This document shows, piece after piece, positions 2,951-22,708 of a stretch of 22,708 nucleotides of DNA (position 1 is the first letter of the stretch; every line of letters begins with the position of its first letter). Below the pieces are notes generated by a model. It was given only the letters and a program-made list of their open reading frames with translations. It was not told the origin of the DNA and did not search any database. A program made the position numbers and the translations under genes. This stretch comes from Amoeboaphelidium occidentale (taxonomy: Eukaryota; Aphelidiomycota; Aphelidea). The stretch lies in assembly GCA_023515795.1 (NCBI GenBank), contig JALGPX010000087.1, positions 31,998 through 54,705 of the forward strand. Direction: 5' to 3'.

Positions 2951-3577
2951 TCAAACTCCAGACAATGGAGCTTGGGAGTTACGGTTTAATCTTTGTCTTG
3001 TGCGTTTTTGCAACAAGTAATCAATGAAATAACCAATGACAGTGATCCAACCAATGATGAGTGCTGCCATACCAGAACCATAACCAAAAGTAGTTGCTAA
3101 ATCGGAAACATTTGGAATGGGTTGGACATTCAAAAAGAATGATGCAGCACAAGCAAAAGCAATAGTGTAACAAATAACAGGAATGAGCAAGATAAGAGCG
3201 ATAATACCACTTCCACCGGTGCAAGCGCATAGTGCACCAAGATTGAAGAGAACACCAATGAGGTAGAACGCTTGGGCTGACGAAATCGTGGAAGGAGTGT
3301 AGTCGTAATAAACGAACGATTCATAAACAACAGCCTGGCCACCTGTCGTTATTGTGTATGTAGGGCTGCTTCTAGCCCATGCATAACCACAAACAGATTG
3401 CGTACAAGCTTGCCACAAACCAACTTCGAAATAGCGTTTACCCTTTTCAACGCTTGTAGCATTAAAGTAAATCCATGGACCAGACATGGCAACAATAGCC
3501 ATGGTGAAGGTGGTAAGAGCCAGCAAGGAAAGCAAAATCTGAAGAGGACCAATATGATATTTTTCTCCAAAAGCCAT
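2951..3577 (-). CDS. Claudin/SUR7-like four-helix membrane protein, paralogue B
   Basis: This is a 208-residue protein with the same topology as paralogue A: helices at about 11-33, 100-119, 122-148 and 166-189. The loop signature W35 / GLW 53-55 / C58 / C63 sits at identical positions. The extracellular loop and the first three helices are best conserved. The region around residues 150-170 before helix 4 and the cytoplasmic tail (K/R-rich, ending APLSGV) have diverged most. The tail difference suggests separate cytoplasmic partners or trafficking, which is inference. No intron is needed. The start ATG at 3577 is preceded by a 105-bp spacer to the third family member. Confidence 0.85.
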   Translation of the reverse strand: MAFGEKYHIGPLQILLSLLALTTFTMAIVAMSGPWIYFNATSVEKGKRYFEVGLWQACTQSVCGYAWARSSPTYTITTGGQAVVYESFVYYDYTPSTISSAQAFYLIGVLFNLGALCACTGGSGIIALILLIPVICYTIAFACAASFFLNVQPIPNVSDLATTFGYGSGMAALIIGWITVIGYFIDYLLQKRTRQRLNRNSQAPLSGV

Positions 3578-3682: not shown

Positions 3683-4342
3683 TCAATCTTCTATTGCGTT
3701 GTCATCTAACGGCATCCTGGCCTGTTCTAGGATACTTTCTTTGTATTCACCTTCTGCATTCTGTATTTGTTGTTTATTACCATTACGGTAATCATTACGG
3801 TCTTTAAAGAAGAGGATAATAAAACCAATAAGAGATGCATACATAAGAAATAAAGAAACTAGCCCAGAGTAAAATGCCGCACCATAGTTGAAGTCAAATC
3901 CAAGAGATGATGAATGATACATGAGCCAAGTGAAATATGCAGTTGCGCAGGCAAAAGCGACCGTACTGAATAATGTTGGTGCAGCAAGACAGAACAGTAT
4001 TCGCTTCGTGCCGTTATACCAATAATAGCAAGTCGACAATATGAAAGGTATACATAGAAAATAGAATACGACAGCGGCCATTACAAGCTCTGGTACTCCA
4101 TTCTCAATAAGCCGAGGGTCTGTAGGTGCGTCTACTTGAATATATTCATTATCGTACCATGTGTCGTCGCATTTTGCGTCAAGGCATGCATCGAAAAGAC
4201 CCACGACTTTCCTTCCTTTCGACACTTCCTGATACAGCCAAGAGGGAATAGCAAGCGCGCATATTAGAAGTATAAATGAAGCAAATGTAGAAAGAAAGAG
4301 AAGAGAACCCGCGTTTTCTCGGGAGCCAAAGTATGGGCGCAT
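3683..4342 (-). CDS. Divergent claudin/SUR7-like membrane protein, paralogue C
   Basis: This is a 219-residue protein from the ATG at 4342 (MRPYFGSRENAG). The open frame extends 12 codons further to a GTG, but an in-frame TAA immediately precedes that and no other ATG exists. There are four membrane segments. The first loop reads PSW...VVGLFDACLDAKCDD, so the tryptophan of the GLW signature is replaced by Phe while the Cys pair is kept. The tail is longer and polar, with an acidic end (LDDNAIED). It lies in the same orientation directly upstream of paralogues B and A and shares their fold, so it is probably the oldest member of a three-gene tandem array. Function is unknown beyond the claudin-like superfamily. 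A 5' exon cannot be excluded. Confidence 0.7.
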   Translation of the reverse strand: MRPYFGSRENAGSLLFLSTFASFILLICALAIPSWLYQEVSKGRKVVGLFDACLDAKCDDTWYDNEYIQVDAPTDPRLIENGVPELVMAAVVFYFLCIPFILSTCYYWYNGTKRILFCLAAPTLFSTVAFACATAYFTWLMYHSSSLGFDFNYGAAFYSGLVSLFLMYASLIGFIILFFKDRNDYRNGNKQQIQNAEGEYKESILEQARMPLDDNAIED

Positions 4343-5014
4343 TCTCGAACCAACAAAAAGATCAGCATTCAACTTCACTTATTGTGATTTGCAAAAACGA
4401 GCTCGTGCAGTCCGAGTTAGCTCCTCATGCGAGAAAACGTAATAAAAACGCTAGAAAAAGTCCTCTCACCTTCTTTTATTGCTTCTATCGGACTGAAAGT
4501 CGATTAACATTATGATATTGCACAATGAGCAGCCGTTCAGAGTCACGATACTGATGATACTACAGCCCTGAGACCTAATTGGTGACTTGTAGCCACAGAT
4601 CTACTCCGCATCATCAGGCTCCGCTGTTTCAAGTTCATATTGGAGAGATCAAATGGTCTGTATGGAGTACACGCTAATGGAACCTGCCTCTAATTGACAC
4701 AGAATTATACAGAGATTTCAATGAACGTTTGAAGCTCAATGCACCTTGCTATCTCTGTGGAACTTTTATGCTTCTATCTTTGGAAATAAACATTTTGAAA
4801 GTCTGCTTGAACCACGCTGCACTCAACACTTTGTTACACTCTTACACCGTCTTCCCGCGCTCGAATGGTTGTTTCAACACCTCGCTAGCACAGTAAGCGC
4901 CAATGTATGCGATGTCGTTTCTTGTTGAGACTCTGCAACTGTTTCCGTCAGAAAATTTCTTCTACTTTTTGTACTCTTAAGATTCGAGCCAAAATCAAAG
5001 TTCCTAAAGAATTA
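4343..5014. other. Gene-free stretch, nothing recognised
   Basis: I find no ORF with protein-like composition, no tRNA-like cloverleaf and no repeat shared with the rest of the window here, apart from isolated TGTTTCA heptamers at 4625 and 4870. The first ~200 bp presumably hold the promoter of the claudin-like gene C. Confidence 0.5.
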
Positions 5015-5270
5015 CATTATAACATGGAAAGGAAACGATATCATAATTTAGTTGCTCTGGAAGTCCATGCCAAAGTTTCAGCTTTACAGCGTCAGCGCAT
5101 CATTTATGCGCGAAAAGTGGTTTCAACGAGATATCCGAGCCAGCTCTAAAGCGCTTCCTCTAGGAGACATAGACGTGAGTCTAGCTTTATTAATCTATCG
5201 ACTGACGCTTTAATTGTGGCATTTGGTTGCGTGTTGGTGTTGTTGTTTCAGACTGATATTTGATCTCATG
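5015..5270 (+). repeat. Diverged, older copy of the TGTTTCA repeat family
   Basis: The order of short matches parallels the repeat that begins at 5730: a gtttcagctt block, then a gtggtttca-cgagatat block, then a tctatcga-tga block, then a g-tgttg-tgtttca block. The sequences between the matches have drifted strongly. This looks like an old copy of the same dispersed element. The call rests on eye alignment only. Confidence 0.4.
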
Positions 5271-5729
5271 CACAAACTTGATGGGTGACTACTGGAACAT
5301 CCTTATCGCATGACTCTATTCCTTTATCCTTGACAGGTAAAGAACTCTATATGCTATTTTGGAGCTAAACAAACTCTAACTGTAAGAAAGTTCACAATCA
5401 GAGAAACAATTGGCAATAGCATTCTCAAGACTTACGCTTGAGAGTTGAATTTCGCGCATAGGAAACTTCACATGATGAACTTTCAGAATCATCCATTAGA
5501 TTTGGCTTAAGTTGTTGGGACGCAAGCTATGCCGCCATGTTTTGATCGCGATCGCGCTGTTTCAATCAAAGAAGGAAGGATTATCAAGAACATTCTAAAT
5601 AAATTGCGTTTCAGACCATCAGAATTCAAATTATCGTTTATTCCCTAAGCCGCTTGATTTTCTGCGTAAGAATAGTAGCTTTTTCTGAGGGCTGTTTGAT
5701 ATTGCAGCAAATCTCGACCACGAGCGAGC
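5271..5729. other. Gene-free stretch, nothing recognised
   Basis: This is AT-rich DNA without a supported ORF or RNA gene. It contains one TGTTTCA heptamer (5558-5564) and leads into the repeat array. Confidence 0.4.
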
Positions 5730-6219
5730 GAAGACCGAATCAAACATCGAAATGTGCTGAAAACGTAACAACCAAGACGAATAGAGGTATAAGAAGCATG
5801 GATATCATAAAAGGATCACTCAAAGGGCTCGATGCTCGAGTTTCAGCTTCGTGGCATAAGCAGCACATATAAGTGGGCTAGGTGGTTTCAGCGAGATATA
5901 TTCAACAGTTCTAACTATTTTAGTCTGACCTTCCATACTGGTCGTCTTTACTCTATTGTCTATCGATTGATATTGATATTATAGGTGTCTGTGACGTTTA
6001 GGTGTTGTTTCACGATAGCTCATTTTCATAGTGGACTAAAAATTCATGATACTACTCTAAAACTCAATAAAATCTATACCTAGAGAAAGGAAAAAATACG
6101 CCCTTTCTATTGGTACCTCAACTGTTCCCACTGGTGCCTGAATCATGGAGCTATATGGTCGGATAACAAACGGGTCTGAAATTTCTCAGACCGCATTACT
6201 CCTCCAGTTTTGAAGTAGA
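5730..6219 (+). repeat. Repeat array, segment 1 (5' part of unit)
   Basis: The segment starts gaagaccgaatcaaacatcg and ends tgaagtaga just before a single N. It matches 6221-6538 over its first ~320 bp and 6540-6700 over its last ~160 bp, with only scattered substitutions. It carries TGTTTCA at 6006-6012. No intact ORF is present. On the minus strand a stretch around 6080-6210 reads protein-like (PFV-RPYSSMIQAP) but with a stop, so it could be a remnant of a transposon gene. Confidence 0.75.
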
Positions 6220-6220
6220 N

Positions 6221-6538
6221 GAAGATCGAATCAAACATCGAAATGTGCTGAAAACGTAACAACCAAGACGAATAGAGGTATAAGAAGCACGGATATCGTA
6301 ATAGGAACACTCAAAGGGCTCGAAGCTCGAGTTTCAGCTTCGTGGCATAAGCAGCACATATAAGTGGGCTAGGTGGTTTTAGCGAGATATCTTCAACAGT
6401 TCTAACTTTTTTAGTCTAACCTTCCATAATGGTCGTCTTTACTCTATTGTATATCGATTTATATTGATATTATAGGTGTCTGTGACGTTTAGGTGTTGTT
6501 TCACGACAGCCCATTTTCATAGTAGACTAAAAATTCAT
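6221..6538 (+). repeat. Repeat array, segment 2
   Basis: This is a second copy of the first ~320 bp of segment 1, bounded by N at 6220 and N at 6539. Differences are mostly single substitutions (for example accgaa to atcgaa at the start). The join at 6539 lacks about 15 bp present in segment 1, which fits a gap of unknown size written as one N. Confidence 0.75.
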
Positions 6539-6539
6539 N

Positions 6540-7053
6540 CTCAATAAAATCTATACCTAGAGAAAGGAAAAAATACGCCCTTTCTATTGGTACCTCAACT
6601 GTTCCCACTGGTGCCTGAATCATGGAGCTATATGGTCGGATAACAAACGGGTCTGAAATTTCTCAGACCGCATTACTCCTCCAGTTTTGAAGTAGACGAG
6701 GATTTGAAGCTACCATTGTCTTTCTCTAAGCTTACGTTAGCGTGATAGAATCGTGGTTTGATTGAAAACCTCTCGAGGCTAGAGATTTTTACAATTGCCG
6801 GTGGAGGTCAATCTGGCAATTTTCTTGAATCAAATAACTGAGATGCAAGTATTAAATCGAAGATTATTCAACAAAGATGAAAGATCTTTATTAACAAGAC
6901 ATATATTCTTCATCAGGAAGTCATCAGACTCCTTGCTGTAGCTCGTTGTGTCTGTAGCATCAATGCGCAAAAACGTTTTAAGCACCTTTGGCCGTTACAG
7001 GCAGCGCATACAAATACCATAAATGTCTTCTAGACTCTAGCAGTTGATGTAGT
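6540..7053 (+). repeat. Repeat array, segment 3 (3' part of unit)
   Basis: It begins with ctcaataaaatctatacc, which matches the end of segment 1, and runs on into the 3' part of the unit (cggtggaggtcaatctgg, catcaggaagtcatcagac) before an N at 7054. Together with segments 1 and 2 it defines a unit of roughly 1.3 kb. Confidence 0.75.
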
Positions 7054-7054
7054 N

Positions 7055-7455
7055 GTTTAGGTGTTGTTTCACGACAGCCCATTTTCATAGTAGACTAAAA
7101 ATTCATGATACTACGCTAAACCTCAATAAAATCTACATCCAAACTAAAGATAAAGTACGCCCTTTCTATTGGTACCTCAACTGTTACAATTGGTGCCTGA
7201 ATCATGGAGCTATATGGTCGGAGAACAAACGGGTCTGAGATTTCTAAGACCGCATTACTCCTCCAGTTTTGAAGTAGACGAGCATTTGGAGCTACCATTG
7301 TCTTTCTCTAAGATTACTTTAGCGTGATAGCATTGTGGTTTCATTGAAAAGCTCTCGAGGCTAGAGATTTTTACAATTGCCGGTGGAGGTCAATCTGGCA
7401 ATTTTCTTGAATCAAACATTTCAGATCCAAGTATTAAATCGAAGATTATTCAACA
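7055..7455 (+). repeat. Repeat array, segment 4
   Basis: This is a third copy covering the middle of the unit, from gtttaggtgttgtttcac to the aagattattcaaca block, ending at N 7456. It is more diverged than segments 1-3. Unlike them, it has an open minus-strand frame at 7116-7298, which is probably a decayed element ORF or chance. Confidence 0.7.
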
Positions 7456-7456
7456 N

Positions 7457-7770
7457 TAGCGTGATAGAATCGTGGTTTCATTGAAAAGCTCTCGAGGCTA
7501 GAGATTTTTACAATTGCCGGTGGGGGTCAATCTGACAATTTTCTTGAATCAAACAACTGAGATAGAAGTATTAAATCGAAGATTATTCAACATAGATGAA
7601 AGATCTTTATTAACAAGACATATATTCTTCATCAGGAAGTCATCAGACTCCTTGCTGTAGCTCGTTGTGTCCGTAGCATCAATGCCCAAAAACGCCTTAA
7701 GCGCCTTGGGCTGTTACAGGCAGCGCATACAAATACCATAAAAGTCTTCTAGACTTCAGGCGTTGATCCA
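7457..7770 (+). repeat. Repeat array, segment 5
   Basis: It repeats the 3' part of the unit seen at about 6740-7050 (tagcgtgatagaatcgtgg through the cagcgcatacaaataccat block). After 7770 the sequence becomes unique and leads into the Fanzor gene, so the Fanzor lies directly against the repeat array. Confidence 0.7.
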
Positions 7771-7994
7771 AACCAGTGAATATGAGTGTTTAACATCATT
7801 AGCAAGCTATATCATCGTGAAAATCCGTGAATTCCATGTCCCTTGGTCGTTTAAGAGTAAATAAGATACCATCGAGTTCAACACGAACCGCGTTGTTTCA
7901 ACTCGACCCAAGCAGGGAAATCATACGCCACACGCATAAACAATCTTTCAAGGCGTTCTTCTTTCGTAAGCTAGCTCGCTTTTTCTCTTTTTGT

Positions 7995-10172
7995 ATGACT
8001 ACGGATTCTATAAGTATTTACGAACATAAGAACAAGTTTCATTTACTACGAGTTGAGGACACTATGGACTTAGATTAAAATATGAGAGTTTATGAGAATG
8101 AGATGCCAAAGACATTTACTACGGAAGAGTTTTTGGGTATGAGTATGGTTGAGCATTCTGGAGTAGCAGTTGATGTGGGCGATTCTAGTGGCATTGGGCC
8201 AAGTGCAGGAGGAAAGAAACGGAAGGAACCAGAAGGCGGCAAAAGGTGTAAGTGTGGCAGTACGGAGCATCAGAGAATCTCCAACAAGAACTGTCCACTG
8301 AACAAGCCTAGGTTGAAACTTCAGTATCGAGATACTGAGTTGCCTGAAAAGACCGTGACGACTACAACTGGTTTGAACTCAGAATTGCGCATTGCTCCTC
8401 TAAAAGACATTATTATGGACGCTGTTGCATGCTGTAATGACATCCAAGTAGAAGTTTCACGCTTGCTGAATGGATACGTGATTTGGATGATTGAAGAGAA
8501 CAGACCCATTCTAGACTTAAGATTTAGTGATGGGATTATGAGAGAGTTCTATCAAGCAGTATGTTCCATTGATGCAGTTAAAAATCCACACCAGCATAAA
8601 GTTGTTTCAACTCCTTCTATTAATGAGTATATGGATGAGGTATACTCGAGGTGCAGGCCTGATCATTTGGCGTGGAATGATGCCACCAAATTAACGCAGC
8701 TCATTTCAAATATGGCGAAAATGCATTCCACAAACTGTCAAAACCATGTGTTCACTAATCGTTTGAAGTGGATAAAGAAATGGTTGATTTGAAAACTTGG
8801 TAAACAATTGAGAGCGTTCTTGAGTGCAGATGATTCTAACCAAGTAGTTACAGTAGCAATGAATGAAATCACACGAACAGAAGAGGACGAAGGATTCTAC
8901 GCTATTCCGCTAAACATCATTGAGGCTGTTACTCCGGAGTAACTGAATCTGATATATGATCGAATTAATCATTACTACGAAAAACTGAGAATTATTCTGA
9001 ATAATCAGCCTTTAGACGAGGACTCTCTTAAGACATCATGATGGACATACTTGAAACCGATGTCCAGGCTTTTGAAAACGTTTGTTAATAATTATAAGCA
9101 AGATGCTCAGAATCGCTTGGAGAATGGGATTCACGGGAGAGGTTTGAGATTGTTTAGTCTCACTCCCATCAGTACTTTTAAACAGAAGTTCATAATCATT
9201 GATACTGACGCTCTACATGATCTAATGACTTCTGAGAATATTGGGATTGTGGTTCCTAGAGATCAAGTGGTTTTCAGAGTTAATGCTATGGAATGGTGGC
9301 GCCGAGCATTCAACGTAGACAAACTCACTACGGCTACAAAGCGTTTTGGTTTCTCTGTCTCTACTAATGGTGTTGAGTATCATCAGCATAACATAAAACA
9401 GTTTGAGAGATCTGAGATCAATGATTGGGGTTACAACTATGAGGGAGAATTTATACCGTTGGAAATTAATGGGCAGACTCGTGTTGTTGCTTTGGACTCG
9501 GGAAGAAACTCTCTATATGTGGCTGTGTCTGGGAATACCGCTGCTGATGTTTTGGAATGTTCAAACAGTCGCTGGCAAGAGATATCAGTGACAAGATACT
9601 CTACCAAGAAGGCCAACACTTGGATAACAGCTGATCGTGACAGGCATATGGAGATTACTTTAACTCCAACACCGTGCTGTTATAATACAGATGATTACAT
9701 TACACACTTGTTGCATGTTTTGGAATATCGCGATGAGTTTCTTGGGCTCTACCGGGCCATGCGTTGGAGAAGACTTCGGTGGAAGACGCGAATTAAACGA
9801 CAGAAGGCGTATGATACTTTATATAAGGAACTTGCTGCTGGTGCTGAAGATGTTGTGATTGCTCATGGTGGTAGAGGTTTCATTCACAACTCCAGAGGAC
9901 ATCCACCCACTCCAAACAAACATCTGTTCTTGGAATTGAAACGAAGAACAAGGTGCAGGTTGGTTCCTGAATTTAGGACAAGCAAATTGTGCTCGCTGTG
10001 TGATAATGAATTGGTTCAATCCGAAGTCTGGTCGATCAAGAGTTGCAACAATAACAACTGCTGGACCCGCTGGAATCGAGATGTGAATGGAGCAAGGAAT
10101 ATCAGAAGAGTTTTCTTACACATGAATGCCAATGGTGGTGAAAAGCCGGAAGCGTTCCGTAGGGGAAACTAG
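7995..10172 (+). pseudogene. Fanzor (eukaryotic TnpB/OrfB-like RNA-guided nuclease), broken by four in-frame stops
   Basis: A single reading frame runs from the ATG at 7995 (or 8082) to the TAG at 10170 with no frameshift. It is interrupted by stops at 8076 (TAA), 8790 (TGA), 8940 (TAA) and 9039 (TGA). The N-terminal part (8082-8789) carries a zinc knuckle CKCGSTEHQRISNKNCPLN. The C-terminal open part (9051-10169, 373 codons) has the nuclease core: RuvC-I VVALDSGRNSLY (Asp codon 9495), VPEFRTSKLCSLC with a glutamate at codon 9969, zinc ribbon CxxC...CxxxxC, and RuvC-III WNRDVNGARNI (Asp codon 10080). The usual RuvC-II site reads VVIAHGG without Glu. The displaced Glu in (V)PEFRTSK is the rearrangement known for Fanzors. 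TnpB/Fanzor proteins cut DNA guided by an RNA made from the element end. As it stands, full-length protein cannot be made, so this is a young relic. Confidence 0.85.
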
Positions 10173-10290
10173 TCTGATGTTTCAACACAACTTGATCATG
10201 GTGCAGGTACTTGAGAGGATTTCCAATTGGGTAGCTGGGAAAGCCATGATCAGCGATAGCCCGAATTCGCATTAGGGCAATTTCGTGTAT
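10130..10290 (+). ncRNA. Candidate Fanzor guide (omega-type) RNA region
   Basis: TnpB/Fanzor guide RNAs are usually encoded at and beyond the 3' end of the nuclease gene. Just after the stop, TGATCATGG (10193-10201) pairs perfectly with CCATGATCA (10244-10252). Inside that stem TTTCC (10220-10224) pairs with GGAAA (10238-10242). A second hairpin follows, GCCC (10259-10262) with GGGC (10275-10278). This is much more structure than the neighbouring AT-rich spacer shows. The boundaries and the assignment as guide RNA are inference from position and pairing. Confidence 0.4.
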
Positions 10291-10447
10291 TGAGTCTTGT
10301 TGCATTAATGATCGCGCGAGTACGAATTATGTCAGTTTTTTCGTTGATCATTTTGCTTGAAAAGCACAATATATCAAACTGATTAGATTTATGAAACAGC
10401 TGACTAATAGTCAATAACACACTTAGCGTCATAATATTGTATCATAT

Positions 10448-21783: not shown

Positions 21784-22238
21784 AAGTCTTCCTTCTACGA
21801 AATAAAACTTCTTCTTTCATATAAAAGCTTCTTATTTTCACGAACACGATTAGCGTGAGTTATTAAGTATAGGGATCGGAACGCGGAATGGTTGAAACAG
21901 AGTATGAAAGTAGAGATGCAAGTAGCTATCTATACTAATTGATCGTTACTGCGGCTCGTGTAACCTTTGGCATACTGTTATTGCTAGACTCTACTGTGAA
22001 CTCTTTGTGAAGCGTTGTTTCAGTGAATGTTTCAGGCAAGGGCATGCAAGGAGGAGAGTGTAATTGGTGTAAAGATGAGCTCGGGTGCTGTTTCATACTC
22101 TACATTGATGGGTTGTTTGAATGCGTGTCTCATTTACTGCGAAAATAGAAAATGGATCGAATCTCCCTTAGGACAAAATCTGTAGAAATTGTCCTAAGGG
22201 AGATTCGATCCATTTCCTATTTTCGCAGTAAATGAGAC
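21784..22238 (+). repeat. 455-bp repeat, copy 1, ending in a long hairpin
   Basis: It begins aagtcttccttctacgaaat and is repeated at 22240 with a constant offset of 456 bp and few substitutions. It contains TGAAACA at 21893 and TGTTTCA at 22016, 22028 and 22089. The last 112 bp are a large inverted repeat. No coding potential was seen. Confidence 0.85.
22127..22238. repeat. Near-perfect inverted repeat, 50-bp arms, 12-bp loop
   Basis: The left arm 22127-22176 and right arm 22189-22238 are reverse complements with one mismatch (49 of 50). The loop is aatctgtagaaa. Arms start gtctcatttactgcgaaaat. The right arm ends directly at the N at 22239, so the arm may be longer in reality, or the structure may reflect an assembly join at a transposon terminal repeat. 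Confidence 0.9.
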
Positions 22239-22239
22239 N

Positions 22240-22668
22240 AAGTCTTCCTTCTACGAAATAAAACTTCTTCTTTCATATAAAAGCTTCTTATTTTCACGAA
22301 CACGATTAGCGTGAGTTATTAAGTATAGGGATCGGAACGCGGAATGGTTGAAACAGAGTATGAAAGTAGAGATGCAACTGGTTATCTATACTAATTTTTC
22401 GTTACTGCGGCTCGTGAAACCTTTGGCATACTGTTATTGCTAGACTTTACTGTGAACTCTTTGTGAAGCGTTGTTTCAGTGAATGTTTCAGGCAAGGGCA
22501 TGCAAGGAGGAGAGTGTAATTGGTGTAAAGATGAGCTCTGGTGCCTTTTCATACTCTACATTGATGGGTTGCTTGAATGTGTGTCTCATTTACTGCGTAG
22601 AATAGGAAATGGATCGAATCTCCCTTAGGACAATTTCTACAGTTTTTGTCCTAAGAGAAATCTTTCGA
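22240..22668 (+). repeat. 455-bp repeat, copy 2, with a decayed hairpin
   Basis: This is the direct copy of 21784 onward. Its hairpin starts at 22583 (gtctcatttactgcg), keeps a perfect core cttaggacaa / ttgtcctaag, and then diverges in the right arm. The loop tttctacagttt is the reverse complement of the copy-1 loop apart from one base. Sequence after ~22669 has no match in the window. Confidence 0.8.
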
Positions 22669-22708
22669 TTGGATTTATGGTGACTGAAAAGCCATGAAAC
22701 TACTGCAG

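Follow-up and report, generated by a model that had tools for sequence, protein, structure and literature searches.

The window analysed here is a stretch of 22,708 nucleotides from the aphelid Amoeboaphelidium occidentale (contig JALGPX010000087.1, forward strand), in which an initial annotation, made from the letters of the DNA, had described a locus of the Fanzor family of nucleases. Judged by sequence comparison, that name is correct: the frame at 7995..10172 (+ strand; final stop codon at 10170) is that of a Fanzor1, in a broken copy interrupted in frame by stop codons at 8076, 8790, 8940 and 9039. It lies within a multicopy transposable element that runs from 4380 to 10371 (+), as delimited by the limits of homology among copies and by its terminal motifs. 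We consider it very probable that the Fanzor1 element in this aphelid window is a dead copy whose active ancestors encoded an RNA-guided nuclease. The kind of element is known and the member is new, a broken Fanzor1 in an aphelid.

The frame is not a product of chance, since the Pfam family PF07282 (Cas12f1-like_TNB) is matched at 31.3 bits (curated cut-off 26.3) and the same genome yields at least 127 protein matches to the window frame, the best besides the window itself with an E-value of 2.1e-206 (110 of 217 candidates were scored, which lowers this count, and redundant assembly pieces inflate it). Homology among the copies of the element starts at 4388-4409 in four loci and stops at 10371 in seven loci and at 10375 in one, with two loci of a diverged kind losing it at 10188. 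The left end is marked by TATTGTG (4380..4386, +; perhaps a TA target duplication plus TTGTG), and this motif or its variants stand at other left ends next to unrelated flanks, the left ends being degenerate in several copies. The right end is marked by CACAATA (10365..10371, +; perhaps CACAA plus a TA target duplication), and all 18 right-end rows, from 17 places, show CACAATA or CGCAATA followed by unrelated flanks. Counting redundant pieces, the genome holds 31 matches to the right-end query and 40 to the left-end query. Multiple copies, defined ends and unrelated flanks together place the frame within a eukaryotic transposable element. TA is found at both outer ends with no longer duplication at the window and C123 copies, and TA may be the target site. 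The C202 copy (L012) has ATAGAGAT on both sides, resembling an 8-bp target duplication that is absent at the window and C123 copies.

After contig overlaps are discounted, the element measures ~4.8 kb, ~2.4 kb of which precedes the gene. In L023 and L014 the frames of this pre-gene stretch are all short, none exceeding 178 aa, and six of them compared with Pfam gave a single match, below the cut-off (E 0.06) and taken as chance; the left part of the element may still contain a decayed gene. Five DDE_3 matches are present in the genome. Three of these loci (L054, L055 and L057) were examined as candidate Tc1/mariner partners of the element, and nothing links them to its ends: they show neither TATTGTG nor CACAATA, nor inverted repeats flanking the frame.

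The window copy is dead and unable to make the whole protein. Sense codons stand at each of the four stop sites in other aligned pieces (13/13 at 8076, 10/14 at 8790, 14/14 at 8940 and 15/15 at 9039): the 8790 stop is common to four of the 14 other pieces, the remaining three stops to none (0/13, 0/14 and 0/15). Mismatches between copies amount to 7.2, 4.5 and 13.3% at codon positions 1, 2 and 3, respectively (the cells are not independent), a pattern that marks selection acting on the protein during the spread of the family. The changes private to the window behave differently from this: 21 of the 23 lie in frame, distributed as 9, 6 and 6 over the codon positions, and comprise 4 synonymous changes, 15 nonsynonymous changes and 2 stops, which is close to neutral. 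Near-neutral private changes and three private stops indicate that the copy decayed mostly after insertion. The copy may have inherited some of its breakage, as would happen if partly broken elements could still be mobilised with outside help. The occurrence of the 8790 stop in several copies reflects either inherited breakage or recurrent change. Repeat-induced point mutation favours a CpA context; C>T and G>A account for 8 of the 23 private changes and five of these eight lie in CpA, too few to tell whether mutation of this kind has acted.

Could the locus instead be a working Fanzor gene, the stops of which lie in introns or are read through? Introns occur in eukaryotic genes, the last 373 codons are open, and a stop found in four of 14 other pieces is what a tolerated or recoded stop might look like. 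Yet protein homology runs unbroken across the stops, other copies have sense codons at every one of them, and the private changes, spread as they are over the codon positions, look neutral, which makes a working gene very unlikely. A search of the genome for intact copies, suggested alongside the initial annotation, showed that copies are many, but no unbroken 725-codon frame was found among the 12 loci of the window subfamily checked. Among the stop-free frames of these 12 loci that consist mainly of Fanzor, the longest, of 376 codons, is that of the window; of a 407-codon frame at L010, just 59 residues match. The genome also holds a more distantly related locus, L022 (C90), with an open frame of 751 codons, and the protein P0013 is identical to the C90 frame.

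As for the family, a database search returned 12 relatives, including A. occidentale proteins, one A. protococcarum protein and proteins from other sources. A profile of 14 rows, which we picked from the relatives and the copies, matches Fanzor1 structures in the PDB with E-values of 1.8e-20 (Spizellomyces), 1.3e-13 (Parasitella) and 7.6e-6 (Guillardia), ahead of mimivirus Fanzor2 (1.2e-5) and TnpB (6.9e-4), and this ranking identifies the window gene as a Fanzor1. The profile search proposed earlier as a check, and sequence searches with it, thus returned Fanzor1 and no other transposase family. A prokaryotic-type TnpB or a Fanzor2 would have the same fold, and NCBIfam TnpB models do touch the zinc ribbon, though far under their cut-offs; given the ranking, we regard either assignment as highly implausible. 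Four gp41-type chains also pass 0.01 in the PDB profile search; they have no matched stretch of their own and were dismissed as chance. A viral origin was likewise set aside, as no relative turned up when viral contigs were scanned once with the profile.

The open part of the frame (9051..10169, +; 373 codons) contains the RuvC domain and the zinc ribbon (TNB), as seen from PF07282, an AlphaFold model and the PDB matches, and its fold is that of a Fanzor1. Within it, ALDSG, VVIAHGG, VPEFRTSK and NRDVNGARN each lie at the place first reported. The RuvC-I aspartate D149, in the DSG of ALDSG (from residue 147; codon 9495..9497, +), aligns with D383 of the Spizellomyces punctatus Fanzor1, SpuFz1, and the RuvC-III aspartate D344, in NRDVNGARN (from residue 342; codon 10080..10082, +), with D606. 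At the canonical RuvC-II position stands Ala271, in VVIAHGG (from residue 268; 9861..9863, +), and not a glutamate; the alternative glutamate E307, in VPEFRTSK (from residue 305; codon 9969..9971, +), follows A271 at a spacing of 36 residues, aligns with SpuFz1 E541 and lies six residues before the zinc ribbon (C314). The ribbon itself has the form CxxC-x14-CxxxxC (9990..10061, +; cysteines 314, 317, 332 and 337). The pattern D...[TS][TS]..C4 zinc finger...RD, used to define Fanzors in PMC3627910, is present as D149, TS 310-311, C314/317/332/337 and RD 343-344. Upstream of the open part, an N-terminal Cys/His cluster, CKCGSTEHQRISNKNC (8247..8294, +), has similar counterparts in the relatives P0002, P0005, P0011 and L022.

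The displaced glutamate is already known and is the rule in Fanzors, so that it is not unusual here. It is present in 14/14 aligned rows, the canonical RuvC-II site in these rows being A, I or V and never Glu, and a motif survey of proteins and loci found E in 40 of 43 matches (some genes counted twice), the three non-E matches being judged to be other motifs. A glutamate six residues ahead of the zinc ribbon, the 'alternative E', is described as a Fanzor trait in PMC10711439, in agreement with the initial annotation, which had called it a published hallmark. The AlphaFold model, consulted to see where E307 falls, predicts it after the strand 301-305 and before the zinc ribbon, and the triad aligns with SpuFz1 D383/E541/D606. 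Although the window copy is decaying, it is scarcely conceivable that the glutamate was displaced only recently and in this copy alone, given that the displaced Glu stands in every aligned row and in nearly every surveyed match and is described for Fanzors in print. What is unusual in the window copy is DSG in place of DPG at RuvC-I. DPG, called near exclusive in PMC10711439, is found in 11/14 aligned rows, the remainder having DSG (the window), DGG and DPN; we take the DSG as decay, since most relatives carry DPG and the window copy does not.

Between the gene and the right end lies a 199-nt noncoding 3' stretch (10173..10371, +), which is a candidate omegaRNA/reRNA scaffold by analogy with SpuFz1, where a 75-nt scaffold is followed by 14-15 nt of flank (PMC10432273); viral Fanzor1 RNAs have been predicted to fold into three stems (PMC10711439). 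In an alignment of 13 rows (C202 twice) out of the 31 right-end matches, helices are kept across copies: six helices with 34 pairs make up the consensus structure, in which 98.6% of 442 cells pair, and sliding the partners by one to three columns drops pairing to 22-52%. Both sides of a pair have changed in 23 cells as compared to 9.2 after shuffling, with a covariation score of 0.238 as compared to 0.172. The best conserved hairpin (helix 5; 10307..10352, +) is near the right end and has 9 of its 11 pairs invariant, and hence carries little covariation information. By the same analogy, the flank at 10372..10386 (+) would be the 14-15 nt guide of the window copy. No Rfam family matched at gathering scores, and, contrary to what we had expected, conservation of the 3' stretch did not exceed that of the gene.

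Several observations weigh against the reading of the window as a dead copy of a once active RNA-guided nuclease element. On the protein side, the second zinc knuckle is CxxxxC as compared to CxxC in the published expression, RuvC-I lacks the DPG, the window has TNG at the WED motif, described as TDG (relatives carry either form), and the AlphaFold model is of moderate confidence (predicted local distance difference test 71.7, predicted template modelling score 0.65). On the RNA side, double-change pairs (5 as compared to 4.8 shuffled) and further pair types (14 as compared to 18.0 shuffled) do not exceed expectation, the rows fall into few lineages, the single-sequence fold is not significant (z -1.46; other strand -1.27), and, with 8.4% mismatch, the 3' stretch is conserved no better than the remainder of the element. 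As to the element, no transposase with these ends was found at the three of the five DDE_3 loci examined, and the shared 8790 stop suggests that part of the decay may predate the window insertion.

By analogy with characterised systems, the active ancestral element would have encoded a Fanzor1 protein of about 700-750 aa. The RNA bound by this protein would be an omegaRNA, produced from the 3' noncoding sequence together with the right end, in which about 15 nt of the adjoining host DNA probably supplied the guide, and matching DNA would be cut by the RuvC site formed by D149, the displaced E307 and D344. Cutting of the emptied site might then help the element to persist, while its movement would depend on a transposase supplied from elsewhere. 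Persistence through cutting of emptied sites has been proposed for TnpB and for other Fanzors.

The closest characterised system is SpuFz1 (PDB 8gkh; PMC10432273), which has the fold in common with the window protein, a D-E-D triad at aligned places and the alternative glutamate beside the zinc ribbon; its elements, too, are multicopy, many of the copies being partial, and have a noncoding stretch at the right end that is conserved. Identity to the window protein is, however, about 17-20%, and the SpuFz1 locus is ~2.1 kb long with 30-nt inverted repeats, whereas the window element is more than twice that length, half of it before the gene, and its copy is broken. PpFz1 of Parasitella parasitica (PDB 9cf0/9cf1; PMC11423790) is 15-16% identical to P0013. 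Mariner-type Fanzor1 elements, in which the Fanzor lies between short inverted ends with TA at both, were described by Bao and Jurka in 2013 (PMC3627910), so that the association of Fanzors with mariner-type elements and TA duplications is already published; as here, some of those elements have no internal transposase, and chimeras among them share one end and differ in the Fanzor part. Nearer still in sequence is MIR68_006730 of Amoeboaphelidium protococcarum (P0004), which is 54% identical over 90% of the query and has the same triad, but is 442 aa long with DGG at RuvC-I. We found no Fanzor paper on aphelids or Opisthosporidia in an open-licence library, subscription papers not being covered.

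The A. occidentale genome contains chimeras of its own. At C38, in a gap-free stretch, the left end matches that of the window at 86.8% identity over 287 nt, but the Fanzor is broken and only 32% identical; the same chimera recurs at C82 (91% identity over 3.5 kb) in a different flank, and the two left ends are 86-87% identical to the window's at the DNA level. Beyond ~350 nt the chimera runs into a repeat also present at C35 and C183, a few kb from Fanzor matches, and this repeat is probably the front part of another Fanzor family. Because the right end of C82 lies behind a single-N join, it was left out of the case for shared right ends. Similar chimeric elements were described in 2013 (PMC3627910). 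We tentatively suggest, at rather less than even confidence, that one aphelid end set has served distant Fanzor1 cassettes, with genes and ends swapped as modules and the 199-nt 3' stretch acting as an omegaRNA with its guide from the host flank, in a phylum that would be a new host for Fanzors. The C38 element is also 86-89% identical to part of a second repeat family at 21987-22204 and 22443-22708 of the window, flanking a single N at 22239. At L020:4794-5798 (+) an open frame of 335 aa, which has a TNB domain (PF07282, 1.3e-8) and by its letters belongs to another Fanzor-like lineage, stands head-to-head with a Fanzor1 related to that of the window.

The initial annotation had placed the gene in a repeat-rich island. 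Repeats are indeed present in the letters, but as a genuine structure they mostly dissolve into an assembly artefact. The apparent tandem repeats (5730..7767, no strand assigned) coincide with contigs joined by single Ns at 6220, 6539, 7054 and 7456, three of the four joins overlapping, and copy L014 spans the same stretch without Ns and without repeats. Across the window and ten other loci, with two gap-free rulers as the measure, 42 of the 44 testable single-N joins have the right piece starting before the left piece's end, and at C202 the right end occurs two times, each time beside the same flank. What looks like tandem repetition is therefore chiefly the overlap of contigs. Single-N scaffolds in this assembly fake tandem repeats inside multicopy elements, and repeat and copy counts need care.

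Elsewhere in the window, three adjacent frames on the reverse strand (2133-2774, 2951-3577 and 3683-4378) read like related membrane proteins; the last is weakly claudin-like, under the cut-off, and the left end of the element lies just upstream of it.

If the reading of the window as a dead Fanzor1 element with active ancestors is true, the range of RNA-guided Fanzor nucleases would extend to the aphelids, algae-killing relatives of fungi. Related elements are numerous in this genome, and both their right-end stretches and their flanks can be compared within it.
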